Shown piece by piece: positions 19,492 to 34,278 of a DNA stretch of 34,278 nt. The first letter of the stretch is position 1. Each line of letters starts with the position of its first letter. The stretch is from Bacteroidota bacterium (GTDB taxonomy: Bacteria; Bacteroidota; Ignavibacteria; UBA10030): NCBI GenBank assembly GCA_025454835.1, contig JALONQ010000034.1:1-34278 (forward strand), read 5' to 3'. The position numbers and the translations under genes are program-made. Below the pieces are notes generated by a model, which saw only the letters and a program-made list of their open reading frames with translations, ran no database searches and had not been told where the DNA came from.

Positions 19492-19569
19492 GTGTCCGTC
19501 GACGCCGTGACACCGGTGGCGCTGCCGGTGAAGATGCGCGCCGTACGGCCGGACGTGCGAACAGCATGA
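19492..19569 (+). CDS. possible 25-codon ORF coupled to the histidine kinase
   Basis: A GTG-started frame of 25 codons ends in a TGA that overlaps the kinase ATG (ATGA at 19566-19569). Most of its codons end in G or C, as in real genes here. There is no ribosome-binding site and no recognisable similarity, so it may be a translational leader, chance, or nothing. Confidence 0.2.
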   Translation: MSVDAVTPVALPVKMRAVRPDVRTA

Positions 19570-21797
19570 ATCAGCGCATTCGTCTTCCTCTCTCGATCGC
19601 CGTCTGGGCGATCCTCATCGGCACGAGCGCCTTGCTGGCGCTCTTCTACGTGGGTTTTCGCGAATCCGTCCGTCTCGAGCACGAAGCCTTCGTACGCCTC
19701 GCCCGCCACGATTCTCTCCTCGAGCGCTCCTACCGTCTCACCTGGGATGCCCACACGTATGCCCGACGGTCATGGCTCGACGGGAAGATCCTTCCTGCCG
19801 CCGCCCCTGGTCTCAGAGCGATCGCGCTGGACCTCGATCAGAGCCGTCGCGCGATCGAAGCAGAGCGCGAAACGTTCGGACCGACCTGGGAGATCGTGAG
19901 CGTCTACCTGGACTCCGTCAACGCGATCCAACGCGCGCTTCGCGAGGTCACAGAACTCGGCCTCCAGCGGGGCGAGGTCTCATCTCCGGCCGCGAGCCTC
20001 ATGCATGACGGCGTCTCGCCGCAGATGGAGCGTTTTCGTCGGCTCAAAGACGAGGTCCACCAGCGGTTTGTGGGCGATCGACTGGCGGCGATCGGGGACG
20101 TGGACCGGCAGATCGAACGCACCTACTCCCGCTGGGCGATCGCGGCGTTCCTGTTCGTTCTCCTCGGCGTTGTGACGACCGTGGTGATTCAGAGTCAGGA
20201 ACGACGAAGGGCGTTGATCATCCAGCAGAAGACGACGGCGGAGGAGCAGTTTCGCGCGCTGGTCGAGCGATCGCAGGACGCGATCGTCATCGTTTCGGAG
20301 GGTGCGGTCGTCTACGTCAATGCGGCGGCCGTACGGATGTTCGAATTCTCCTCTCCCGAGGAGGTCCGCCGTGCCGACCTCTTCGCGCTCATGGGCCCAG
20401 CGGTCCGTGGACTGTTTCAGGACCGTGTGGCCGGCCGCTCGCCCGGCGAGGAGCTTGCCCGAGGTGAAGAAGTGCGGAGCATGACGCAGCAAGGACGGTT
20501 GCTTGACCTCGAGGTCAGCGCGTCAGTGATCACTTGGAACGGTCGGACGGCCGTGCAGGCCACGTACCGCGATGTCACCGGCCGGAAGATGCAGGAGCGC
20601 GAACAAGCCTTGCTGTTGTGGGAACAAGAGGCCTTGAGTCAGATCGACCGACGGCTCATCGGCGTGGTCGACCTGAATCACATTCTCGATGCGATCCTTG
20701 GCCACCTCGTGACGCTGACGAAGGCCCCATGGGCCGGCGTCCTGATGCGAGAGGGAACGTCGCAGCGGTTCCGATGGCGTTCGATGGTGGGGGCGGGAGT
20801 TCCGATGCCTGCAGAACCGTTCGAACTGGCCCCTTCCTTGCGCGCGATCCTCGGCAGCAACGAACCGTTCGTTCTGCACGAAGTGTCGACGCCTCCCGAA
20901 GGCCGGTTGACGGATCTCGCGGGGGTCGAGGCTGAACGCGTCTTGTCTTCCGTCTGGATCCCGCTGAAAGGGAACCCTCACGTTCGAGGTCTCCTGTCGG
21001 TCGGCCACCGGCAGATGCATGATTTCAACCGGCGGGAGCTTCGGCTGCTCGTCTCGCTTGCCGAAAAAATGTCGATCGCCGCGGCCAACGCGTCGCTGTA
21101 TGAGGACCTCCTGGCCCGCGAGCATGATCTCGAGGTCCTGTCGGGCCTGCGCGTGAATGCACAAGAGGAGGAGCGCCGCCGCATCGCCCGCGAGATCCAC
21201 GACGGGCTGGGCCAGATCCTGACGGCCGTGAAGTTCAACGTCGAGATCCTCGAGGATTCTTCGACACTCAACACCGAAGACCGCCGCCGCATCGCAGACG
21301 TGAAGACCCTGCTCGACAACGTCATGAAAGAGGCACGCGAGATCTCGTACAATCTCATGCCCAGCGTGCTCGACGATTTCGGCCTGGCTCCGGCGCTGCA
21401 ATTGCTCGCGGAGCGTTTCGGGGCACAGATGGGCGTTCGCGTGACGTTCGTGGCTCAAGGTATGACCGAGCGACTCCCGGGGCCGGTTGAGATCGCCCTC
21501 TACCGCATCGTTCAGGAGGCGCTGACGAATTCCGTCCGGCACGGCGAGGCCACGCAGGTGGCGATCCAGGCGTTCCGGTCGGGTGGCGAGCTTCGGTTGA
21601 CGATCGAAGACGATGGCCGCGGCATGGACCCCGATCGAGCGGTCGAACGGCGCCTCGTCGGCAGCGGCATCGGTCTGGCGAGCATGCGGGAACGCGTCAA
21701 CTCATTCCGCGGGGTTCTGGACATTGAGAGTTCCCCGGGCAACGGGACCCTGATCTCCGTTCACATCCCGATCGCCTCATCTCCTGAGTTGTCATGA
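19566..21797 (+). CDS. membrane sensor histidine kinase (PAS-GAF-HisKA_3-HATPase)
   Basis: The 743-residue kinase has a membrane helix at about 10-31, a mostly helical extracytoplasmic region (about 32-185) and a second helix (about 189-208). A PAS domain (about 225-340, FRALVERSQDAIVIV) and a GAF domain (about 355-515) follow. The NarX-type HisKA_3 dimerisation domain has phosphoacceptor His545 in RRRIAREIHDGLGQ. The ATPase has the N box (QEALTNSVRHGEA), DDGRGMD and GSGIGLASMRERV. This class pairs with NarL/FixJ regulators, and the next gene, overlapping by four bases, is one. The periplasmic region has the length of a four-helix sensor bundle, but its ligand is unknown. Confidence 0.93.
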   Translation: MNQRIRLPLSIAVWAILIGTSALLALFYVGFRESVRLEHEAFVRLARHDSLLERSYRLTWDAHTYARRSWLDGKILPAAAPGLRAIALDLDQSRRAIEAERETFGPTWEIVSVYLDSVNAIQRALREVTELGLQRGEVSSPAASLMHDGVSPQMERFRRLKDEVHQRFVGDRLAAIGDVDRQIERTYSRWAIAAFLFVLLGVVTTVVIQSQERRRALIIQQKTTAEEQFRALVERSQDAIVIVSEGAVVYVNAAAVRMFEFSSPEEVRRADLFALMGPAVRGLFQDRVAGRSPGEELARGEEVRSMTQQGRLLDLEVSASVITWNGRTAVQATYRDVTGRKMQEREQALLLWEQEALSQIDRRLIGVVDLNHILDAILGHLVTLTKAPWAGVLMREGTSQRFRWRSMVGAGVPMPAEPFELAPSLRAILGSNEPFVLHEVSTPPEGRLTDLAGVEAERVLSSVWIPLKGNPHVRGLLSVGHRQMHDFNRRELRLLVSLAEKMSIAAANASLYEDLLAREHDLEVLSGLRVNAQEEERRRIAREIHDGLGQILTAVKFNVEILEDSSTLNTEDRRRIADVKTLLDNVMKEAREISYNLMPSVLDDFGLAPALQLLAERFGAQMGVRVTFVAQGMTERLPGPVEIALYRIVQEALTNSVRHGEATQVAIQAFRSGGELRLTIEDDGRGMDPDRAVERRLVGSGIGLASMRERVNSFRGVLDIESSPGNGTLISVHIPIASSPELS

Positions 21798-22456
21798 CAA
21801 AGATCCGCGTACTGTTGGCTGACGATCATCCGCTCGTCCGGTCGGGGTTGATGGCCCTGCTCGAACCGCTGAAGGAATTCCTCATCGTCGGCGAGGCGGG
21901 CGACGGACGTGAGGCCGTTGCTCTGACGAAGAAGCTCAAGCCCGACGTGGTGGTCATCGACCTCTCCATGCCCGTCATGTCGGGAGTGGAGGCGACGAAG
22001 ATCATCCGCCAGGAGGTGCCCGCGTCCAACGTGCTTGTGCTCACGATGCACGAGAACGAGGAATATGTCTTCCAGATCCTGCGCTCCGGCGCCGGCGGCT
22101 ATATCCTCAAGAATTGCAGCCGTGAGGAGCTGGCGGCGGCCATTCGTGCTGTGGCCAAGGGAGAGAAGTTCTTCAGCCCGAAGGTCTCGGAGATGATGGT
22201 GCAGGCGTACCTGCGCAAGGCGGAAGCGCGCGAGACGCAGGCTGTGGACCCGACTGAAACGCCTCTGACCCCGCGAGAACGAGAGGTGTTGACGTGTGTG
22301 GCGGAGGGCATGACCAATCAGGAGGTTGCCGAAAAGCTCTTTATCTCGACGCGTACGGTTGAGACGCACAAGACCAACATCATGCAGAAGCTGGGGATCG
22401 AAGACACGGCGAAACTGATCCGATATGCCGTGGAACTGAAAATGAAAGGCCGATGA
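21794..22456 (+). CDS. NarL/FixJ-type response regulator (REC + LuxR HTH)
   Basis: This 220-residue regulator has a receiver domain with acidic pair Asp10/Asp11, phosphoacceptor Asp56 (VVVIDLSMP) and the conserved Lys in GGYILKNCS. A linker leads to a C-terminal LuxR-type helix-turn-helix (about 155-215: LTPREREVLTCVAEGMTNQEVAEKL). It overlaps the histidine kinase gene by four bases, making them a cognate pair. A strong terminator follows, so the two receiver-only genes downstream are likely transcribed separately. Confidence 0.95.
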   Translation: MTKIRVLLADDHPLVRSGLMALLEPLKEFLIVGEAGDGREAVALTKKLKPDVVVIDLSMPVMSGVEATKIIRQEVPASNVLVLTMHENEEYVFQILRSGAGGYILKNCSREELAAAIRAVAKGEKFFSPKVSEMMVQAYLRKAEARETQAVDPTETPLTPREREVLTCVAEGMTNQEVAEKLFISTRTVETHKTNIMQKLGIEDTAKLIRYAVELKMKGR

Positions 22457-23103: not shown

Positions 23104-23208
23104 CGCGAACAGCTCAACCGCGAACATACGCGAATGTACGCGAATGAACCAGTCCATCATTCAAGTATTCGCGCCTGCCTGCCGCAGGCAGGTCGATTCG
23201 CGCCTGCC
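23104..23208 (+). repeat. cluster of short direct and inverted repeats
   Basis: The spacer between the two receiver-only genes has CGCGAAC at 23104 and 23119. It then has two adjacent 10-mers ACGCGAATG(T/A) (23128-23147), and an exact 13-bp direct repeat ATTCGCGCCTGCC at 23167-23179 and 23196-23208. Between the 13-mers lies a perfect hairpin, CCTGCCTG (23174-23181) with CAGGCAGG (23185-23192). A related CAGGCGGG appears again near 23240. Confidence 0.75.
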
Positions 23209-23330
23209 CGCCACGTGCGGTGCACGTTTCTGGAACATGGCAGGCGGGTTCATTCGCGGTGGTTCAGGAGGATTTTCTCTTGGCAAGTTCCGCTGCACGA
23301 CACACGTTCCACACTTCAAGGATATCCATC

Positions 23331-23705
23331 ATGAGCAACATGACAGTTCTGGTCGCTGACGATCACGCGCTCGTGCGCGGCATGATCAGCGCCTATCTCC
23401 GCTCTCGCCACGATGTGGCCCTCGTATTCGAGGCCGTCGACGGGGTCGATCTGGTGGAGCAGGCGCAGCAGCGACGGCCCGACGTGGTCTTGGTCGACGT
23501 TCGCATGCCCCGGAAGAACGGCCTGGATGCGGCGCGCGAGATTAAAACGGCCCACCCCGATGCCAGGGTCATTGTGATGTCGAACGAAGAATCGTTCCGG
23601 CCGTTGGCGCTGGCTCATCGCGCGGATGCGTTCATCTCGAAAGGCTCGCTGAAAGCGTCGCTCCAGGACCTGCTGAATCCTGCACCTGTGGTCGCGGCCG
23701 CCTGA
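23331..23705 (+). CDS. stand-alone receiver-domain protein (second)
   Basis: The 124-residue product is another receiver-only protein with Asp10/Asp11, phosphoacceptor Asp56 (VVLVDVRMP), Ser in VIVMSNEE and Lys in AFISKGS. It resembles the NarL-type regulator and the first receiver-only protein in layout, and lacks an output domain. AAGGA lies eight bases before ATG 23331; the upstream frame to 23220 reads repeat sequence and was rejected. It ends only 30 bases before the giant secreted protein gene, so the two are probably co-transcribed. Confidence 0.9.
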   Translation: MSNMTVLVADDHALVRGMISAYLRSRHDVALVFEAVDGVDLVEQAQQRRPDVVLVDVRMPRKNGLDAAREIKTAHPDARVIVMSNEESFRPLALAHRADAFISKGSLKASLQDLLNPAPVVAAA

Positions 23706-23735: not shown

Positions 23736-26700
23736 GTGATTCGTCGTTCATCCATAGCGCTCCTGTTCTTCTGCCTCGCCCTCGGCGCGACGTCCATCGT
23801 CAGCGCCCAGGGGAGTGTGGCGAACTACGCCGTGACCCGTACCACGGGGATCACGTACCAGTCGATCGCCGCGACCGGAACGTCCGTCACCTCGTGGCGG
23901 AACACCGCGGGGGGTACGCTCCAGGACGACAATCGGAGCTTCCCGCAGCCGATCGGGTTCGACTTCTGGTACAACGGAACGAGTCACACGACCTTCAGCG
24001 TCTCCACGAACGGCTTCATCGACTTCTCGTCGAACACGGCCAACGGCACCGGCACCAACGCCTTCGGATATGCGAACGCGGCCTTCTCAGGGACGACCGC
24101 GGCGGCGGGAACCTGGCTGACCCTTGCGCCGATCTATGACGACCTGACGACGCAGGGAGCGACCGATCCGCTCGGCAACGGCGTGAAGTACCAGGTCTCC
24201 GGGACCGCGCCATACCGCGTGCTGACCGTCGAATGGATCAACCTGGCCGTGTTCGGCAACACGTCGCCGAGCCTCAACTTCCAGGTGAAGCTGTACGAAT
24301 CGACCGGGATCATTGAGTTCGTGTACGGCACGATGACGGTCGGCACCGGCTGGACGCCCAGCTACAGCTCCGGCATCAATGATTCAGTCACCGCGGCGAT
24401 CTTGGCCGCCGATCTCCTGACGCAGCAAACGGCCAACACGGCCACCTTCAGCAACACGGTCCAGAACAACCTCGCGACGGTCCCCCAGACCAATTCGCGC
24501 ATCCGGTTCTCACCGCCGGTCCCGCGTAGACCGTCGAACCTGACGATCAGCGGGATCACCGGTTCCTCGATGCAACTCAACTGGACCGATGTTGCGACGA
24601 ATGAGGTCCGGTACGCCATCTTCCGCTCCACCGACGGTGTCGAGTATGATCTGGTCTCGCAACTGACCCCCAACAGCGCAACGACCACGGCCACGGGCCT
24701 GCTCGGCAGCACCCTCTACTACTGGCGCGTCATTCCGGTCACGGAAGGCAACGTCGACTCGGCCGCGGCTGCGAGCGACACCACGCTGCAGCCGAGCACC
24801 TTCGTGTCGCAGCAATCCGGGCTGTGGAGCTCGACCTCCACATGGCTGGGCGGAGTGGTCCCCACGACGAACGCAAACGTCATCATCGACAGCAGTCATG
24901 CCGTGACGCTCGACGCCAGCCCGACCGTGAACACGCTGACGGTGGGACAAGGCTCGCGGGCGACGCTGCTGTTCGGCAACAACGCGACGGCGCGGACACT
25001 GACCCTCGTGGGCGACCTGATCGTTTCCGACAGCGCCCGATTCGTCGCGAACGCCGCCTCGCTGACCTCGAGTCACCTCGTGACGACGAGCGGCAACATC
25101 CTGAACAACGGAACGCTCGACTTCGAACCCTCGGGCACCAGCCGGGTGCAGGCCCAGTTCACGAAGGCAGGATCGCAGACGATCAGCGGATCGGGCGACA
25201 CGACGCGCTTCTACCTCGTCGTGCTGAGCATGGGCGCGTCGTCTTCGAACACGCTCGACGTCTTCTCGACGGACTTCCGGACGGGCGGTTCGGGATTCCT
25301 GACGATCCAGAATGGGACCTTCAAGTTCGCGTCGCCACGGTCGATCACCCCGTTCACGACGGCCACGACGGTCCCGCTGTCGGGGGGCCTCTGGGTCGCG
25401 AATCCCTCCGCCGTCGTCTCGACGACGGGCGGCAGCCTGACGGTTCAGGGACTCATCCGGGTCACGTCGGGGCGGCTCGTCATCGGTTCGGCCGCCGACC
25501 ACAGCCTGATCTCGAACGGCGCCACCGTCACCGTCGAAGGCGGAACGCTCGCCATCGCCGGTCGCTTCGACCGGTTCAACGTTGCCGCCACGACGCGCCT
25601 CAGCATGTCCGGAGGCGAACTGCGCGTGCCGACCATCGGTTCGACGAGCACGACGAACGCGCCTTTCATGATGGACGTGGTCGGGTCGCAGTTCGATTGG
25701 TCGGGCGGACGGATCATCATCGAGCGCGAGGGGGGCACGGGGGCCAATGACCTGGGCTATGTGAATACCGGGTCGTCGACGTGGTCGGTCGTCGGCGGCA
25801 CGCTGCAGATCGGATCGTCGTCGACGCCCGCCGTACAGACGATGAGCATCAACACGAACATCCCGGTATTCGACCTTGTCGACAGCAGCGCGAACGCCAC
25901 GGCCCGGCTGCTGACGAACCCTCTGACCGTTCGCAACGACGTCCTCATCGCCGCCGGCACCCTCAACGCGAACAACCTGAACATGACTGTCAAGCGGAAC
26001 TGGACGAATGCCGGCACCTTCACACCGGGAACGGCGACGGTCACGTTCGACAGCACTCTCGCGCAGACGATCACCGATGCTACGGGCGAGACGTTCAACA
26101 ACCTGACGATCAACAAACCCTCGGGCACGATCACGCAATCGGGCCACGTGACCGTGACCGGCACGATGTCGGTCACGTCGGGCATCTACAACGTTGGGTC
26201 TGACACGCTGACGCTCAACGGCGCGTTCACGCTGTCGGATTCGCTCCTGGCCACCTCTGGAACGGTCGGATACCAGCAGGCCGGCGCCGGACAGGCCGTT
26301 CGGGCGGCTGTCTATCGGGACCTGGTATTCGCGGGCGGCACCAAGGTTCTGCCGGCCACCGGAGCCGTGGAGGTGAAGGGGACGTTCGCACCGGGTGCGG
26401 CCAGCGGTCACACGATCACGGGGAGCACGATCGCCTTCACCGGCGCGTCGCAGTCGATCCCGGCATTCCGGTTCAACAACCTGAGCGTGACGGGAACGGC
26501 GCCGACACTCGCCGCAACGGATACGGTCACAGGGGCGTTGAACGTCGGCGGCTCGACGACGCTCAATCTTGGAGCCAACAACCTCGTCGTCAATGGCAAT
26601 GCAACGAATGCGGGCTCGATCACCGGAACCGGTCAGGTGGTACTGGCGGGAGGCTCGTCGCCACATGCGCTGGGCGGAACGGGCACCTACGTACGCCTGA

Positions 26701-29700
26701 CGTTGAACGACGCCCAGGGCGCTGTCGCCTCGGATGATGTAACGGTTTCCGGACAGCTGACGCTGACGAGTGGCGTGTTCTCCAGCACGGCCGATACCGT
26801 GATCATCGGCGCGAGCGGGTCTGTTTCGCGAACGACGGGACATGTCAACGGATACCTTCGAAAGACCGTGCCGACCGGGACCGATGTTCCCGTCTATTTC
26901 GAGCTGGGCGACGCGACCCGGTTCGCACCCGATTCCGTCGTCTTCTCCTCCGTCAGCCAGGGGGGCACGTTGACATCCCGCTCTGTCGGCGCCGAACATC
27001 CGCAGATCGCGACCTCGCCGCTCAACCTGACCGATAACGTGAACCGTTACTGGCAGTTCTACAACGACGGAGTTCTCTATTCCACGCACGCCACCACGTT
27101 CCGCTGGGATGCGGCCGATCAGGATCAGGCGGGGAACGAGTTGGGGTTTGCGACCGCCCGCTACGACGGTGCGGCATGGGATACAACGGCCTCCAGCAAC
27201 CATACGGCCACAAGCCTGCGGTCGGACGGAAACACGATCTTCGCCGAGTATGCCGTCGGCGGGACGACGCCGACGAATGCCTACCGCACGAGGGCGAGCG
27301 GCAACTGGAACGGCACGACCGTCTGGCAGTACTACCACGGTCCTTCAGGTACCTGGCGCGACACGACGGCCTTCCCGACCTCGACCGCCGGACTGATCAG
27401 CATTCGCTCGCCTCATGTCATTGCGGTCAGCGCCGGCGTCACGGTCGATCAGGTATTGATCGAATCTGGGGGACAGGTCACCGTGAACGCCGGACAGACC
27501 TTGACGATCGCGAACGGCGGCGGCACTGACCTGACGGTCTTGGGGACGCTTCGCATCGTGGGCAACGATTTGACCATCAATGCCGGCGCCACGATCGCCT
27601 TTGGAGCGGGCGGCCTCTATCAGCATGCCAAGCATGGCGGCAATATTCCGGTCGCCACATGGGACCCGGCTTCGACGGTCGAGATCGTCGGAGGTGCGGC
27701 TGCGGGCGCCACATTGCCGGGCAACAGGAATCAGGTGTTCGGCAACTTCACATGGAACTACACGACCCAGAATGCGGCCTTGGCGTTGGCGCTGCAACCC
27801 GCCACGATCACGGGTACGTATCGGGTCGTCTCGTCGGGATCCTCGAACGTTCGCCTGCTGAACAATACGACCACCGCTCTGACCATCGGGGGCGATCTGG
27901 TCATTCAGGGCGGCACCGTCCTCGGCAAGAATGCCGGGAACAACACGCAGCCGATCAATGTGGCCGGCGGGTATCAGCAATCAGGCGGAACCTTCACGAT
28001 CAGCGACGGCGCCGCGGACAATGTCAACCTGACTGTGTCGGGCGGCTTCACGAAGTCGGCCGGGACGCTGACGATCTCCACCCAGGCGGCTACGGACAAC
28101 CTGAATATTGCCGGGAACTTCAGCCACACGGGGGGCACGATCACCGAGACCTCTACCGGCACGGCCAACATCGTCTTCAATGGAACCGGCACCCAGACCC
28201 ATACGTCGGGCGGGACCGTCAGCAATCAGATCAACTTCTCCGTCTCCTCGGGCGCGACGCTCGACATGGGGACGAGCGTCATCACGGGCGGTGGTACATT
28301 CACGCTCGCCAACGGCGGCACACTGATCATTGGCTCGACCGACGGCATCACGGCAACGGGCGGAGGGGCCGTCGGCAATATTCAGGTGACGGGCACGAGG
28401 ACCTTCAACACCGGCGCGAACTATGTGTATCGCAACGCAATAGCGGCCCAAGTGACGGGAAGCGGCTTGCCGGCGACGGTGAACAAGCTCACGATCAACA
28501 ACGGGTCGGTGGGAGGCGTAAGCCTCACCGCGAACACTGCAGTCACTGACTCCTTGATCCTGACCGCCGGTCCCCTGACGCTGCCGGCCGGGCGCACGCT
28601 GACCATCACGAATGTGGTGGCCGTCGGGGCCGGTTCGCTCTCGAGCGATGCGACGGCGACCGTGGAGTACAACCGGGGATCGGCCGGTCAATCGGTGCTG
28701 AGCCTGGCTTACGGGAACCTGACGTTCTCCAACTTTGCCAAGATCCTGCCGTCGGGTGTCATGACGATCTCGGGCGCGTTCACGCCAGGCTCGGGTACGG
28801 GGCATGCGATCACCGGCAACACGGTCGAATTCAATGGAGCCGCGCAATCGATCCCCGCGTTCACCTACAACAAACTGCGCGTGTCGGGCAGCGGCCTGAA
28901 GACGGCGACGGGGAACCTGTCGGTCGCCGACTCGCTCATCGCCGTCTCCAGCGATACTCTCCGCGACGGCGGCTTCACGCTCACGTCCAAGGGGAACATT
29001 CTCCTGAACGTCCCGCACGGAGGGACCGGCCGCATCCTGATCACAGGGACGACCTCGACGCCGACGATCGCCGGAAGCGCGAGCTTCGCCAATCTGGAAC
29101 TTGACAACCTGACGTACGGCGCTTCGCTGAACGGCGGAATGACCGTGCGCGGCACGCTGACGTTGACGAAGGGCATCCTGCAGACCGGGAGCGATACGCT
29201 CTTCATGGCCCCGGGCGCGCTGGTCAGCCGTCCGGTCGGTGGCGGACACGTGCGCGGCTTCTTGTCGAAGATCGTGCCGGTCAACGCCTCGCCGCAGAAC
29301 GTGACGTTCGAAGTGGGTGACGCCGCCAGCTACGCTCCGGTCAGCCTCAACTTCACATCGGTCTCCGTGCAGGGCCGCGTCGCTGCGCGAACTCTCGGCG
29401 TGCAACATCCCGACGCTGTCAACTCGGGTCTCGACAGCTCGAAGGGGACCAACCGATATTGGACGCTCGTCAACAACGGCGTCGTCTTTTCGACCTTCAG
29501 CAGTACGCTCACATTCGTGAGCGGCGACATCGACGCCGGGGCGAATCCTGCCTTCTTCTTCGTGCGCCGCAAGTCGGGGAGCGTCTGGAGCGCCGCCACA
29601 AACAACACGCGGGCCTCCTTCTCGACCACGGGTTCCCCCTGGACCGGCTTCGGGGACTTCGTGACCGGCGAGCTCAACGCCATCGTCTACTGGACGGGTG

Positions 29701-32700
29701 CGGCCGGAACGGCGAACTGGGGTGATGCGCTCAACTGGAGCTCGCTCAGCCTTCCGACGGCGGGCAACGACGTCTACTTCACGACGACCGACACCGTGCT
29801 CGTCAATGTTGCGGCCATCGCCCGCAAGTTCGTGATGGAGCACGACAGTGTCCTCTTCCGCATGGTCGACAGCACGCTCACGCTGTCTGACAGCCTCGTG
29901 ATCCGGGGTGGCGAATTCAGGACCGAACGCGATTCGCTGCCATACGCCCCATTCTACGGGCTCACGGGAGGCGTCGTGCACTACGCCCGGACCTCGGGCA
30001 CGCAATACGTCCGCAACACACCCCACTTCGACATCCGATTCAGCGGTGCCGGTTCGAAGGTCATCAGTTCGGCCTTCACCGCCGACCGCAACATGACCAT
30101 CGATGCCGGCGCTCCCGTGACGGTGGCGGATGCCGGTGTGCAGGTCGGAGGGAACTTCACAAACAACGGATCGTTGACGGCGGGGACCGGCACGTACACA
30201 TTCAGCGGAAGCGGCGTCACGCTCGGCGGTTCAAGCATCACGACGCTGGCCAATGCCACGGTCACGGGTTCGGCGACACAAACGGCCCGCCTCACGGTCA
30301 CCGGTTCCGTCTCGGGCGCCGGCTCGCTGACCAACGGGACCAATGCCACGTTGCGGGTGGCGGGTGGCGTCACGGTCGGCACGTTCACGGCAACGGCGGC
30401 GGGCAACACCGTGGAGTACAACGGTGCGGCCCAGGCGGTCCGTGCTACCGCCTATGATCGGCTCCTCCTGTCGACGGGAGGTACGAAGACCGCCGGCGGC
30501 TCGTTCGCCGTGCAGGATAGTCTCGAGATCGCGTCAACCGTGACATTCGCCGACGGCGGGTTCACGATCACGGCGCAAGCGAGCGTGGTGAACGCCGGCA
30601 CCCATTCGGGCTCGGGTTCGATCCGACTGTCGTCGGGCGTCGTCGCTCATCCGGTGAGCGGGGCCGGGACGTTCAGCAACCTCGAATTGAACGACGCGAA
30701 CGGGGCCACGCTCGCGGGTTCCGTGACGACGATCTCAGGCACGCTCACGCTGACGAACGGCCTCCTGACGATCCCAGGTGCCTCCGATACGCTGAGCATT
30801 GGCTCCGGCGGCTCGATCGTCCGTGCGTCCGGCCACGTCGTCGGCACGCTCCGACGCTATGTCGCGTCGGGCGGGTCGAGCATCCTGTATCCCGTCGGGA
30901 CGGCAATCGGCTATCAGCCGGTCCGGCTGCAGTTCGCGTCGGTGACGACGCCGGGCTTCGTGAGCGTGTCGCGGCGGCCGAATGAGCATCCGAACATCGG
31001 AGACCCGACTTCGGTGGCCGATTCGACGAAGAACGTGAACGCTTGGTGGCGATTGGTTCCCAACGGCATCGTACTCGGCGGCAACTTCACCGCGACATTT
31101 GCGTTCGCGAACCCGGCGGAACTCGACGCCGGCGTCTCGCCGACGAGTTCGAACTTCATCGGGCATCGGTGGAGCGGTTCGGCCTGGTCCCTGCCCACGG
31201 TCGGCGACCGGTCGGCCGACAGCACGCGTCTCGACGGGCTGACGGCTTTCGGCGACTTCGTGTTGGCTGACCTTCTCGCCGCCACGATCACCGTGACGAC
31301 AAGCGGCGGTTGGGCCAGCCCGGCCACGTGGCCCGGCGGACGGATCCCGGGGGCCCTCGATACGGTGGTGATCCCGAGTCCATTCACGATCACGCTCGAC
31401 ACCAACGCGACCCTGGCGCAACTTGTGATCCAGACGGGGGGTACGTTCAACGGCGGCACTGACACGCTGACGCTCACGGGCAACCTCACGCTCGACGGAA
31501 CCTGGTCCGGCGGCGGGCTCATCGTCATGACGACGCCGGTCGACACGATCCGCGGCACGGGCTCGACGAGCGGAACGGCCACGCTTCTCATCGATGCGAC
31601 ATCCGTCGTCCATCCGACGGCCGACCTGACGCTCTACGCCGTAACGGTGGCCAACGGTGACACGCTCCGCAACCTCGGAAGCGTGACCGTGACGACGCTG
31701 GATGGTGCAGGGGTTGGAGCGGTGTTCGTGAACGGCGCGACTGCGACGCTGACGATCACGGGGTCGGTCATGTCGACGGGGACGCTCGACGCCTCGGCGA
31801 GTCCCAACTCCGTCATCTACGACAGTCCGAACTCACAGACGATCATCGCCGCCCAGTACCACAACCTGACGATCTCCGGCGCCCGGACCGTCAACACCGT
31901 CACGCTGGAGACGGGCACGATCGGCGTGGCCGGCGCCTTCACGCCTTCCGCGACATACACGTCGGGCAGTTACCTTGCCGCCGGTGACACTCTCGCCTTC
32001 AACGGGACGGGGGCGCAGTTCATTCCCGCCTTCCAGTACGGAACGCTTCGCCTCGACAACAACCGCACGATCAACAACATCACCTTCGACCCGGACGGGA
32101 CGATCGCGATCGGCGAGGCCTTCATCCCCAGCGCGAGCTTCAGTTCCGGTGATTATGTGACGACGTCGAGCAACATCCGGTTCAACGGGGCGGGGGCGCA
32201 GAGCATTCCGACGTTCGCCTACGAGAACCTCGAGGTGGACGGCGGCGGCGTGAAGACCCTGGCTGCTTCGACCACGGTCGGCGATTCGCTCGCGGTGCTC
32301 GCGGCCACCCTGGACCTCGGCACCCTGACGGCGAACCGGGCGACCAGCGGCGGTGCGCTCGTGGTGGCGTCGGGGGCCACGCTGCGTGTGGGCGGTTCCG
32401 CCGGCGGAGAACCGGGGAGTAACTTCCCGACGAACTACGCCTCCGTCCAGCTCAACGGGGCCGTGGACTATAACGGCACCGGAGCGCAGACCGTCGCACC
32501 TCTCCACTACCACGACCTCGTTCTCAGCGGTACCCGCGGGACCAACAACGTCACCCTTCCGGCCGACACGGTCTTTGTCGCCGGCGCCTTCACCGCTTCG
32601 GCGGCCTTCACGAGCGGCTCCTACGTCACGACGAACAACACCTTTGCCTACGACGGCAGCGCCACGCAGACCGTTGCGGCCCCCTTTGCCTACTACAACC

Positions 32701-33407
32701 TGACGTTCGCCGGCAACCGCGGCGCCGGGACTGTCACACTGGCGGCCGACACGGTCCGCGTCGCAAACATCTTCGACCCGCTGGCGACGTTCACCACCGG
32801 CGGGTATAGCGTCGCCTCCAACACCTTCGACTTCGACGGCACGGGGGCGCAGACCGTCCCGGCCTTCCAGTATTTCAACCTCCGCATTTCGGGCAATCGC
32901 GGAGCGAACTCGGTGACGCTGGCCGGGTCCGATACGGTCCACGTTGCCGGTACCTTCGCTCCGCTCGCATCGTTCGCCGGCGGCTCCTACGTGACGACGG
33001 GGAGCTCCTTCGACTACAATGCCGCCGGCGCCCAGGCGGTCGCGGCCTTCGACTATCGATCGCTGACTTTGAGCGGCAGCGGCGTCAAGACGCTGGCCGC
33101 CGGTACCACCCGGATCGCAGCAGACCTGACGCTGGCCGGCTCGGCCTCCGTCAACGCCGTCGCGAACAGTACCACGATCGAATACAATGGCTCGGCGACA
33201 CAATCTGTGGCCGGTGTCGCCTATTACGCGCTCACGTTCAATAACAGCGGCGTCAAGACCCTGAGTGCCTCGGCCTCGACGGCCTCGACGACGACGATCG
33301 CTGCCGCCTCGACCTTCCGCATCACGGCGGCGGGTTCGATGCTGTTTGGCGCCGACATTGAGAACGACGGCATTTTCCAGAATGAAGGAACCATCACCGT
33401 GCCCTGA
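23736..33407 (+). CDS. giant secreted modular beta-repeat protein (3223 residues)
   Basis: The start is GTG, giving a signal peptide (about 1-25, ending VSAQ). An N-terminal beta-sandwich-like domain (about 27-265) precedes an FN3 domain (about 268-352). The rest is three large blocks plus a fourth partial block. Blocks begin with a G8-like module (SG.W....TW..G..P) near 24809, 27292, 29686 and 31294. They contain filament-like strands with the core (F/Y)NG.GAQ(T/S)(V/I)PAF.Y.NL, and close with a module beginning HV.G.L.K.V at residues 1036, 1838 and 2367 and ending NRYW...N.G. The last 500 residues repeat every 60-61 residues. Composition is Thr/Ser/Gly/Ala/Val-rich with almost no Cys. No anchor, barrel or type IX secretion C-terminal domain is seen. 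It is probably an adhesin or surface-layer protein. Confidence 0.9.
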   Translation: MIRRSSIALLFFCLALGATSIVSAQGSVANYAVTRTTGITYQSIAATGTSVTSWRNTAGGTLQDDNRSFPQPIGFDFWYNGTSHTTFSVSTNGFIDFSSNTANGTGTNAFGYANAAFSGTTAAAGTWLTLAPIYDDLTTQGATDPLGNGVKYQVSGTAPYRVLTVEWINLAVFGNTSPSLNFQVKLYESTGIIEFVYGTMTVGTGWTPSYSSGINDSVTAAILAADLLTQQTANTATFSNTVQNNLATVPQTNSRIRFSPPVPRRPSNLTISGITGSSMQLNWTDVATNEVRYAIFRSTDGVEYDLVSQLTPNSATTTATGLLGSTLYYWRVIPVTEGNVDSAAAASDTTLQPSTFVSQQSGLWSSTSTWLGGVVPTTNANVIIDSSHAVTLDASPTVNTLTVGQGSRATLLFGNNATARTLTLVGDLIVSDSARFVANAASLTSSHLVTTSGNILNNGTLDFEPSGTSRVQAQFTKAGSQTISGSGDTTRFYLVVLSMGASSSNTLDVFSTDFRTGGSGFLTIQNGTFKFASPRSITPFTTATTVPLSGGLWVANPSAVVSTTGGSLTVQGLIRVTSGRLVIGSAADHSLISNGATVTVEGGTLAIAGRFDRFNVAATTRLSMSGGELRVPTIGSTSTTNAPFMMDVVGSQFDWSGGRIIIEREGGTGANDLGYVNTGSSTWSVVGGTLQIGSSSTPAVQTMSINTNIPVFDLVDSSANATARLLTNPLTVRNDVLIAAGTLNANNLNMTVKRNWTNAGTFTPGTATVTFDSTLAQTITDATGETFNNLTINKPSGTITQSGHVTVTGTMSVTSGIYNVGSDTLTLNGAFTLSDSLLATSGTVGYQQAGAGQAVRAAVYRDLVFAGGTKVLPATGAVEVKGTFAPGAASGHTITGSTIAFTGASQSIPAFRFNNLSVTGTAPTLAATDTVTGALNVGGSTTLNLGANNLVVNGNATNAGSITGTGQVVLAGGSSPHALGGTGTYVRLTLNDAQGAVASDDVTVSGQLTLTSGVFSSTADTVIIGASGSVSRTTGHVNGYLRKTVPTGTDVPVYFELGDATRFAPDSVVFSSVSQGGTLTSRSVGAEHPQIATSPLNLTDNVNRYWQFYNDGVLYSTHATTFRWDAADQDQAGNELGFATARYDGAAWDTTASSNHTATSLRSDGNTIFAEYAVGGTTPTNAYRTRASGNWNGTTVWQYYHGPSGTWRDTTAFPTSTAGLISIRSPHVIAVSAGVTVDQVLIESGGQVTVNAGQTLTIANGGGTDLTVLGTLRIVGNDLTINAGATIAFGAGGLYQHAKHGGNIPVATWDPASTVEIVGGAAAGATLPGNRNQVFGNFTWNYTTQNAALALALQPATITGTYRVVSSGSSNVRLLNNTTTALTIGGDLVIQGGTVLGKNAGNNTQPINVAGGYQQSGGTFTISDGAADNVNLTVSGGFTKSAGTLTISTQAATDNLNIAGNFSHTGGTITETSTGTANIVFNGTGTQTHTSGGTVSNQINFSVSSGATLDMGTSVITGGGTFTLANGGTLIIGSTDGITATGGGAVGNIQVTGTRTFNTGANYVYRNAIAAQVTGSGLPATVNKLTINNGSVGGVSLTANTAVTDSLILTAGPLTLPAGRTLTITNVVAVGAGSLSSDATATVEYNRGSAGQSVLSLAYGNLTFSNFAKILPSGVMTISGAFTPGSGTGHAITGNTVEFNGAAQSIPAFTYNKLRVSGSGLKTATGNLSVADSLIAVSSDTLRDGGFTLTSKGNILLNVPHGGTGRILITGTTSTPTIAGSASFANLELDNLTYGASLNGGMTVRGTLTLTKGILQTGSDTLFMAPGALVSRPVGGGHVRGFLSKIVPVNASPQNVTFEVGDAASYAPVSLNFTSVSVQGRVAARTLGVQHPDAVNSGLDSSKGTNRYWTLVNNGVVFSTFSSTLTFVSGDIDAGANPAFFFVRRKSGSVWSAATNNTRASFSTTGSPWTGFGDFVTGELNAIVYWTGAAGTANWGDALNWSSLSLPTAGNDVYFTTTDTVLVNVAAIARKFVMEHDSVLFRMVDSTLTLSDSLVIRGGEFRTERDSLPYAPFYGLTGGVVHYARTSGTQYVRNTPHFDIRFSGAGSKVISSAFTADRNMTIDAGAPVTVADAGVQVGGNFTNNGSLTAGTGTYTFSGSGVTLGGSSITTLANATVTGSATQTARLTVTGSVSGAGSLTNGTNATLRVAGGVTVGTFTATAAGNTVEYNGAAQAVRATAYDRLLLSTGGTKTAGGSFAVQDSLEIASTVTFADGGFTITAQASVVNAGTHSGSGSIRLSSGVVAHPVSGAGTFSNLELNDANGATLAGSVTTISGTLTLTNGLLTIPGASDTLSIGSGGSIVRASGHVVGTLRRYVASGGSSILYPVGTAIGYQPVRLQFASVTTPGFVSVSRRPNEHPNIGDPTSVADSTKNVNAWWRLVPNGIVLGGNFTATFAFANPAELDAGVSPTSSNFIGHRWSGSAWSLPTVGDRSADSTRLDGLTAFGDFVLADLLAATITVTTSGGWASPATWPGGRIPGALDTVVIPSPFTITLDTNATLAQLVIQTGGTFNGGTDTLTLTGNLTLDGTWSGGGLIVMTTPVDTIRGTGSTSGTATLLIDATSVVHPTADLTLYAVTVANGDTLRNLGSVTVTTLDGAGVGAVFVNGATATLTITGSVMSTGTLDASASPNSVIYDSPNSQTIIAAQYHNLTISGARTVNTVTLETGTIGVAGAFTPSATYTSGSYLAAGDTLAFNGTGAQFIPAFQYGTLRLDNNRTINNITFDPDGTIAIGEAFIPSASFSSGDYVTTSSNIRFNGAGAQSIPTFAYENLEVDGGGVKTLAASTTVGDSLAVLAATLDLGTLTANRATSGGALVVASGATLRVGGSAGGEPGSNFPTNYASVQLNGAVDYNGTGAQTVAPLHYHDLVLSGTRGTNNVTLPADTVFVAGAFTASAAFTSGSYVTTNNTFAYDGSATQTVAAPFAYYNLTFAGNRGAGTVTLAADTVRVANIFDPLATFTTGGYSVASNTFDFDGTGAQTVPAFQYFNLRISGNRGANSVTLAGSDTVHVAGTFAPLASFAGGSYVTTGSSFDYNAAGAQAVAAFDYRSLTLSGSGVKTLAAGTTRIAADLTLAGSASVNAVANSTTIEYNGSATQSVAGVAYYALTFNNSGVKTLSASASTASTTTIAAASTFRITAAGSMLFGADIENDGIFQNEGTITVP
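31811..33224 (+). repeat. protein-level tandem repeats of about 180-183 bp in the giant gene
   Basis: The core (F/Y)(N/D)G.GAQ(T/S)(V/I)..F.Y..L recurs with starts near 31811, 31992, 32175, 32463, 32643, 32826, 33009 and 33177. Most intervals are 180-183 bases (60-61 codons), with one longer interval of 288. Copies share amino-acid pattern more than exact bases. Between cores, a DTV.VAG.F.P.A.F..G.YV.T segment also recurs. Confidence 0.85.
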
Positions 33408-33480: not shown

Positions 33481-34278
33481 ATGAAGCACAACACGTTTCC
33501 TTCGCGCACGCTGGCGACGTTGGCCCTGGTCGGACTGACGGTTGCGAGCCTTTCTGCCCAGAATCTCCGGAACCGTGGCACCATCGTGAATACGGGGACG
33601 GCGACCTACAACAGCATCACCAATCACCGCACGGGCACCGGCGGCACCATTGTCAATCGAGGCACCCTGAATTCGAACACCACGTTCGTCAACGGCGACG
33701 GTGCCACGGCTCTCGGTCGGGTCCGTAACTACGTTGGCGGCACCGGGGCCGGAACCGTTCGCGTCACGACTAACTGGAGCAACGGCGGCGGCACATTCGA
33801 CAACGATAGTTTGGGTGGCGGAACCTTCGTCGGCCGACTGCGCATCGGCGGCACGGCCACGGCGACGGGTACGTTCGACACCGATAGCGGAGCGGTGGAG
33901 TATTTCGGGAGCGGGGCGCAGACCATCGTCAGGGCGAGGTATGGCGCTTTGATCGCGTCGGGCAGCAATGTCAAGACGGTGTCCGACACGGTGGTTGTTC
34001 GGGATTCGCTTCGCATCGCGTCGGGGTCGACGCTGCAGTTGGACGCAACGACCGATACGCTGGCGATCCTGAGCGCGACCAACACCAACGCGGGCACGTT
34101 CACTGCGACGTCGGGTGCCGTGAACTATGGCGCCGATGCGGACCAGACGGTCTTTGGCGGCCAGTATCAGCGGCTGTATCTGTCGGGTTCGTCGGCGGCG
34201 CGGTCGAAGACCAGCACGTCGGGCCTGAGCTTCGTGGCCTCCGGTTCGTTGAGCGTGGGTGCGAACGACACGCTGGTG
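33481..34278 (+). CDS. second secreted beta-repeat protein (partial, runs off the window)
   Basis: The frame is open for 266 codons to the right edge with no stop. ATG 33481 has AAAGGAG seven bases upstream and gives a clear signal peptide (about 1-27, hydrophobic TLATLALVGLTVASLSAQ). An in-frame ATG at 33424, with GGGAGG five bases upstream, would add 19 residues before it. The mature part starts with short N.GTI.N.GT repeats, then shows the core VEYFGSGAQTIVRARYGAL and VNYGADADQTVFGGQYQRL, the same motif as in the giant protein just upstream. It is probably a paralogous surface or secreted protein, 73 bases downstream and likely in the same transcript. Confidence 0.85.
   Translation, partial: MKHNTFPSRTLATLALVGLTVASLSAQNLRNRGTIVNTGTATYNSITNHRTGTGGTIVNRGTLNSNTTFVNGDGATALGRVRNYVGGTGAGTVRVTTNWSNGGGTFDNDSLGGGTFVGRLRIGGTATATGTFDTDSGAVEYFGSGAQTIVRARYGALIASGSNVKTVSDTVVVRDSLRIASGSTLQLDATTDTLAILSATNTNAGTFTATSGAVNYGADADQTVFGGQYQRLYLSGSSAARSKTSTSGLSFVASGSLSVGANDTLV

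Follow-up and report, generated by a model that had tools for sequence, protein, structure and literature searches.

Homologous blocks closed by an unnamed module in a giant, putatively surface-exposed protein of an Ignavibacteria bacterium

How is a giant bacterial protein with internal repeats built, and is its repetition a recent product of copying or an old plan in which every part has its place? The window analysed here, the whole stretch of 34,278 nucleotides, raises these questions through one gene, P0001 (23736-33407, plus strand, GTG start at 23736), which encodes a protein of 3,223 residues in whose composition Thr, Gly, Ala and Ser prevail; it has one cysteine, 28 Lys and 41 Glu. 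Here, we show using shuffled-sequence controls, tiled self-comparison, profile searches and comparison with orthologues that three homologous blocks in this protein are real. The protein can be divided as follows:

23736..23810, plus strand: signal peptide, residues 1-25, with likely cleavage, judged by eye, before Gln26 (between IVSA and QG)
23811..24524, plus strand: N-terminal domain, residues 26-263, matched at E <= 1e-50 in four families of the order (19 of 98 genomes)
24525..24785, plus strand: fn3 domain, residues 264-350 (Pfam fn3 E 9e-4, under the cut-off in P0001)
24783..25115, plus strand: G8-like start of block 1, residues 350-460 (10.1 SD similarity to the start of block 4, G8-4)
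25083..26840, plus strand: filament of block 1, residues 450-1035, of which 740-1035 are homologous to blocks 2 and 3
26841..27275, plus strand: closing module 1, residues 1036-1180 (motif and profile match)
27273..27635, plus strand: G8-like start of block 2, residues 1180-1300 (7.0 SD to the start of block 1, G8-1)
27603..29246, plus strand: filament of block 2, residues 1290-1837, of which 1540-1837 are homologous to blocks 1 and 3
29247..29675, plus strand: closing module 2, residues 1838-1980 (motif and profile match)
29658..29945, plus strand: putative G8-like start of block 3, residues 1975-2070 (0.7-2.7 SD, weakly supported)
29943..30833, plus strand: filament of block 3, residues 2070-2366 (block homology; AF2 model beta-helix-like over 2222-2321)
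30834..31259, plus strand: closing module 3, residues 2367-2508 (motif and profile match)
31248..31805, plus strand: G8 domain and first filament of block 4, residues 2505-2690 (Pfam G8)
31803..33317, plus strand: array of eight 61-residue filament units, residues 2693-3194 (period 61)
33153..33404, plus strand: C-terminal end, residues 3140-3223, matching the C-terminus of the giant in the congener G001

The named domains at the block starts are of unequal clarity. Pfam G8 (PF10162) scores 40.7 bits in P0001 against a gathering value of 22.9, in two stretches of which the best lies at 2531-2573, and did not report blocks 2 and 3 individually. The start of block 2 resembles G8-4 (4.9 SD) as well as G8-1, and that of block 3, compared with the other three, is the weakest element of the plan; it is kept at 30-37% in the orthologues of G014, G028, G033 and G080. 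The preliminary description had placed a G8-like start in each block, and this is borne out by the two Pfam stretches and, through similarity, in block 2, but in block 3 otherwise only by look. The G8 and first filament of block 4 are common to G014 (53%) and G054 (47%, 163 bits). Pfam fn3 (PF00041) reaches 19.8 bits in P0001, below its gathering value of 25, and lies over the cut-off in the orthologues of G014 (30.6 bits), G055 (34.4 bits) and G080 (26.6 bits). A Pfam match to Amnionless (E 0.036) is under that family's cut-off and was rejected, and an NCBIfam search of P0001 gave no match at E <= 0.1. The regular 60-residue array announced for block 4 does exist, but its period is 61, and units of the same type also occur inside blocks 1-3, starting at 768, 843 and 898 in the filament of block 1 and at 1642 and 1696 in that of block 2.

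Counted from the GTG, the three histidines at 1036, 1838 and 2367, with intervals of 802 and 529 residues, are exactly where they had been reported. The motif given for the closing modules (HV.G.L.K.V, FE.GDA..YAP, NRYW) closely fits modules 1 and 2, but module 3 reads HVVGTLRRYV, YPVGTAIGYQP and NAWW at these places. In pairwise comparison the closing modules lie 36, 23 and 25 SD above 2,000 shuffles, and the 290 residues ahead of them 25, 14 and 21 SD (pairs 1-2, 1-3 and 2-3), so that the homology of the blocks reaches about 290 residues upstream of each closing module, into the filament. The earlier filament parts (450-740 and 1290-1540) show little similarity to these 290-residue parts (1.3-5.3 SD). 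A self dot-plot had been proposed as a check, with the absence of off-diagonal signal between the blocks as the outcome that would speak against them. Whole-against-whole self-BLAST of P0001 gave no rows, and the check was run with tiles in its place: collinear off-diagonals appear for 851-1046 against 1650-1848 (128 bits), 964-1148 against 1763-1951 (126), 1701-1893 against 2230-2420 (119) and 955-1148 against 2283-2484 (109), compared with a best off-diagonal of 38-50 bits in 20 locally shuffled copies. As signal between the blocks is present, the comparison does not refute them; inside the terminal array it reaches 151 bits. A profile that combines 44 modules of other genomes and leaves out the rows of the window, but whose rows had first been gathered with profiles seeded by the window's modules, finds in P0001 only the three modules above noise, at 139.6, 152.8 and 127.2 bits; on 300 locally shuffled copies its best score is 5.3 bits. 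Shuffles, tiles and outside profile thus uphold the view of the blocks as homologous super-modules.

Are these blocks recent tandem duplications within one genome, kept without functional constraint? Internal homology speaks for such a history, as does the length of the terminal array, eight units against one in the same-family orthologue of G014. However, the closing modules are only 31-38% identical to one another, and at the DNA level the gene holds only two short repeat families, 60-73% alike; in DNA, copies of the terminal array match the reference copy at 61-71% identity. An expansion of the array in the P0001 lineage alone was not upheld, as counts by place cover P0001, the second filament gene and G014; for the f5 orthologues the figure is a total of 8-13 unit matches per protein. 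Comparison between genomes bears on the same question. The orthologues read are those of G014, from the same family of the order (f1), and of G028, G033, G080, G089, G091 and G081, from family f5, the last of which, interrupted by a gap, is spread over three frames. The four orthologues compared piecewise (G014, G028, G033 and G080) run collinear with residues 26-2060 of P0001 at 30-56%. The first interval measures 802, 800, 801, 780, 813, 804, 796 and 804 residues in G000, G014, G028, G033, G080, G089, G091 and G081, and a range of 780-813 residues across eight genomes and two families argues against recent copying. The second interval is 529 residues in P0001, 387, 383 and 386 in G014, G028 and G089, and about 381 in G081, where it was read across a sequence break; block 3 of P0001 is longer than in three orthologues. 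The blocks had been called elastic in length, which suits the second interval and the array, but the first interval hardly changes between species. The third module is matched only weakly (E 2e-5 to 1e-3) in G080, G091 and G033, the first two of which carry a domain of a different kind at this position.

Across genomes the closing modules mostly group by position, which speaks against recent duplication. On a tree of 24 modules the position labels C1, C2 and C3 need 3 changes, compared with a mean of 11.6 after shuffling and none of 200 shuffles as low; C2 is one clade (91/89), and C1 and C3, needing 2 changes each, are not single clades. An earlier tree of 35 rows united C1 of G000, G028 and G014 (90/94), C2 of G000, G014 and G033 (86/79) and C3 of G000 and G014 (100/99), left C2 of G028 and C1 of G033 unplaced, and set C3 of G028 among other modules. 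We therefore give next to no weight to recent duplication: the block plan comes from ancient internal duplication and is now position-specific.

What is the module that closes each block? With about 140 residues, it has no name in the libraries searched, Pfam and NCBIfam, in line with the preliminary description, which could not name it: 47 members yielded no convincing match, only scattered matches of single members with a best E of 0.0062. Titin chains match the module (E 2.9e-7 and 4.9e-5), no single stretch passing by itself, and prompted a profile comparison with the orthologues' own fn3, which gave a probability of 1.4%; kinship with fn3 was rejected. Foldseek with a model of the module found nothing at E <= 0.001 (best E 0.22), and among solved structures VIA-align gave a best Z of 5.5 (alginate lyase), followed by MYDGF and beta-galactosidases at 4.4-4.7, from which we make no assignment. 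A literature search in one library found no description of the module or of these giants. The domain now defined was present in 26 of the 41 genomes examined first, its own genome included, and within the order 47 of 98 genomes have it at E <= 1e-15; it is not confined to P0001. In a sample of 395 genomes of the phylum, 32 have it at E <= 1e-10: 12 from the order, 12 from other parts of the class and 8 from the rest of the phylum. The genome of P0001 holds no copy outside that protein at E <= 0.001. A contig scan for named relatives returned one weak match, with 29% identity, in Azospira sp. I13 (L005, NZ_BFBP01000009.1, 8001-8405), a record named as a betaproteobacterium, which reflects either transfer or a mixed assembly.

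The AF2 model of block 3, made from a three-row alignment of window rows, is poor overall (mean pLDDT 60.2, pTM 0.63), with residues 2222-2321 at mean pLDDT 84-95 and beta-helix-like, and the closing module mostly under 50. Modelled alone from a four-row alignment, the closing module is predicted to be strand-rich (mean pLDDT 58.9, pTM 0.60). Foldseek with the block 3 model found nothing at E <= 0.001; VIA-align gave TibA (Z 13.8) and antigen 43 (Z 12.6) as the best rows, on a scale where the tool itself warns that repeats often give Z below about 13, and the other rows listed are largely beta-helix adhesins, tailspikes and polysaccharide enzymes. In TMEM2, G8 belongs to a continuous right-handed beta-helix that is followed by a beta-sandwich (PMC10206443). 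This architecture and the block 3 model together lead us to interpret each block as a G8-started helix with a sandwich at its end. G8 and filament most likely form a right-handed parallel beta-helix, for which the model offers moderate support, and the closing modules might, more tentatively, be beta-sandwich joints.

Beta-helices are typical of lyases and depolymerases, and several of the VIA rows are beta-helix lyases, epimerases or tailspike depolymerases, so P0001 could in principle be a secreted polysaccharide-active enzyme rather than a rod. It has no enzymatic Pfam or NCBIfam family, however, its composition is dominated by Thr, Gly, Ala and Ser and poor in Lys and Glu, its blocks are repeated and the top VIA rows are adhesins, all of which makes an enzyme very unlikely. 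We rather favour a Sec-exported giant surface protein that is a segmented rod of G8-started blocks. The N-terminal domain and fn3 would form the outer tip or ligand-facing part of this rod; each of the three repeated blocks would be a stiff helix begun by G8 and ended by a closing-module sandwich joint; and a fourth G8-started helix, lengthened by the array of 61-residue units, would run to the C-terminal end, which in this orientation probably lies near the cell. The signal peptide is read by eye from the residues, and from the whole we infer surface exposure and a role in adhesion. The kind of protein, a giant surface rod or adhesin, is already known; its architecture is unusually clear and conserved.

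How would such a protein reach the surface? For Bacteroidetes signal peptides a Q-rule has been described, a Gln after the cleavage site (PMC5837995), and Gln26 after the likely cleavage site fits this rule and favours the signal peptide reading. The own genome has 75 matches to the T9SS type A tail at E <= 0.001, 73 of them over the cut-off. At the C-terminus of P0001 we found no type IX sorting domain and no NCBIfam match at E <= 0.1, and in the whole protein no Pfam autotransporter barrel at E <= 1, which together count against the export reading; the G014 orthologue likewise has no T9SS tail at E <= 0.01. In favour of surface export, two proteins that share the orthologous N-terminal domain, in G024 and G034, have by profile a T9SS type A tail that scores over the cut-off, and other giants with the closing module were read by eye as having such tails. 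Two more giant open frames of the own genome, at 218392 on contig C1 and 37710 on contig C16 (5,788 and 3,120 residues), have T9SS tail matches. The f1 giants and second filament proteins (33270-33404; L039, L037, L043, L109) share a short C-terminal end, approximately NxGTIxVG, which could be the last beta-helix coil or a sorting or anchoring signal. A profile of ten such ends, run on the own genome, matched P0001 itself; its other matches were a frame of 127 residues that reads from the contig C6 edge (E 4e-6), a stretch inside P0001 (E 7e-6) and, more weakly, further internal places. A genome-wide sorting signal was rejected on these few and partly internal matches, and the internal ones mean that the end may be only the last coil.

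The gene stands in a locus with further features:

19566..21797, plus strand: PAS/GAF histidine kinase (Pfam)
21794..22456, plus strand: NarL-type response regulator (Pfam Response_reg and GerE)
23331..23705, plus strand: stand-alone CheY-like receiver, directly upstream of the giant gene (Pfam Response_reg)
33481..34278, plus strand: second filament-type gene, cut by the contig end at 34278, with two clear filament units and one weak

The gene order is conserved in relatives. At E <= 1e-60 the NarL-type regulator is matched in 28 of the 32 genomes of the family, and the stretch from regulator to complete giant could be read in seven genomes (the window, G001, G006, G011, G014, G054 and G055), five of which have the stand-alone receiver in between, G014 and G054 being without it. 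Exceptions are G021, with two receivers and no giant after them, G002, with smaller filament genes, and G016 and G022, where the giant lies 12-15 kb from the regulator; in many other genomes either the contig stops before this point or no comparable gene comes next. The gene accC lies near the regulator on the same contig in six genomes (the window, G001, G014, G054, G055 and G060). As kinase and regulator stand upstream, at the same locus in relatives, the giant locus is probably controlled by this histidine kinase and the response regulators. Contig C6 of the own genome (L131, 58-4740, minus strand) encodes a protein of 1,561 residues that combines eight Big_1 stretches with a dockerin match and a T9SS tail and is probably the third or next gene of the locus, contig C6 being placed after contig C8 because of the gene order in relatives and the 127-residue frame at its edge. 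A GC-rich, inverted-repeat-like stretch (gcctgcctgccgcaggcaggt...) lies at 23150-23270 between the regulator genes and the receiver. Near the kinase-regulator locus of G054 and G009, related transposase-like proteins of about 304 residues (L163 3790-4701, L164 7189-8100), recognised by eye, are possibly insertion elements. The f5 orthologue sits elsewhere, after a protein of about 1,050 residues, which has no Pfam match in G080, where it was tested, and before a protein of about 360 residues and DUF11 proteins. Together with the giant, these f5 neighbours make up a conserved cluster of exported proteins (L104, L106, L107, L113, L034, L048), several of which have, by eye, similar C-termini of roughly [FY]KVx[IV][NKQR].

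Does this locus always display the same rod? Possibly its kinase, regulators, giant and second filament gene are a fixed frame, and close relatives exchange or lose the first ~2,500 residues of the giant and keep its end, in the manner of antigenic or phage-receptor variation. This locus in G001, a congener, encodes a giant of 2,891 residues without the N-terminal domain or closing modules, with weak Ig-like matches (Big_1, Invasin_D3) under their cut-offs, whose very C-terminus matches the last 84 residues of P0001 (37%, 75.9 bits). G055 has a short form of 986 residues that runs from the N-terminal domain through fn3 and G8-1 over the greater part of filament 1 and has no closing module. G054 shares chiefly the G8-4 block, and of its closing-type matches one is clear (E 2e-15) and the others are weaker. 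The tree of the N-terminal domain departs from the families, with G081, an f5 genome with f5-type neighbours, inside four f1 rows (100/99 and 99/98), and the identity of this domain is about equal for f5 (G033, 57%) and f1 (G014, 55%), while accC gives 78-79% against 70-74%. Yet differential loss and unequal rates explain much of this pattern, which draws on one sister genome and on draft contigs; the place of P0001 in the tree (86/78, with a row 30% filled) is unsettled, and the G001 giant has two G8-like matches, of 48.9 and 57.4 bits, close to the 50 bits that shuffles reach, and no Pfam G8. We regard such exchange as tentative. Two copies of the N-terminal domain occur in G055, on different contigs (L108, L109).

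More speculatively still, a fixed, two-component-controlled locus might display an exchangeable giant rod whose ancient N-terminal part of three super-modules moved between families and was swapped against unrelated Ig-like or other rods, the C-terminal end being kept; the surface would be reached without a T9SS tail through the shared short end (..NxGTIxV..), also found on the filament partner proteins and a candidate new sorting or anchoring signal. If exchange of the N-terminal part is true, the locus offers a natural series for studying swapping, tail-less export and regulation of giant surface rods.

Returning to the segmented rod that we favour, P0001 is a clear case of ancient, position-specific super-modules in a giant bacterial protein, as opposed to freely slipping repeats, and it can be set beside several known systems. 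The G8 beta-helix proteins TMEM2, CEMIP and fibrocystin also have G8 followed by strand-rich sequence, but P0001 is bacterial, has four G8-like starts per chain and a closing module that is unrelated by the tests made. TibA, antigen 43, HMW1 and Hap, with which the predicted beta-helix of block 3 aligns best (Z 13.8-10.5), are likewise large, repetitive and exported; P0001, in contrast, is super-modular and has no C-terminal barrel, and its host is of another phylum type, with T9SS. To the T9SS cargo giants of the Bacteroidota it is linked by the type A tail matches of its own genome, by other giants with the closing module and by the tailed homologues of its N-terminal domain in G024 and G034, but P0001 itself is without a tail. 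Finally, periscope proteins have a rod lengthened by tandem units (PMC8201768), as in the P0001 array, but their arrays are highly similar, whereas the units of P0001 have diverged well away from near-identity.
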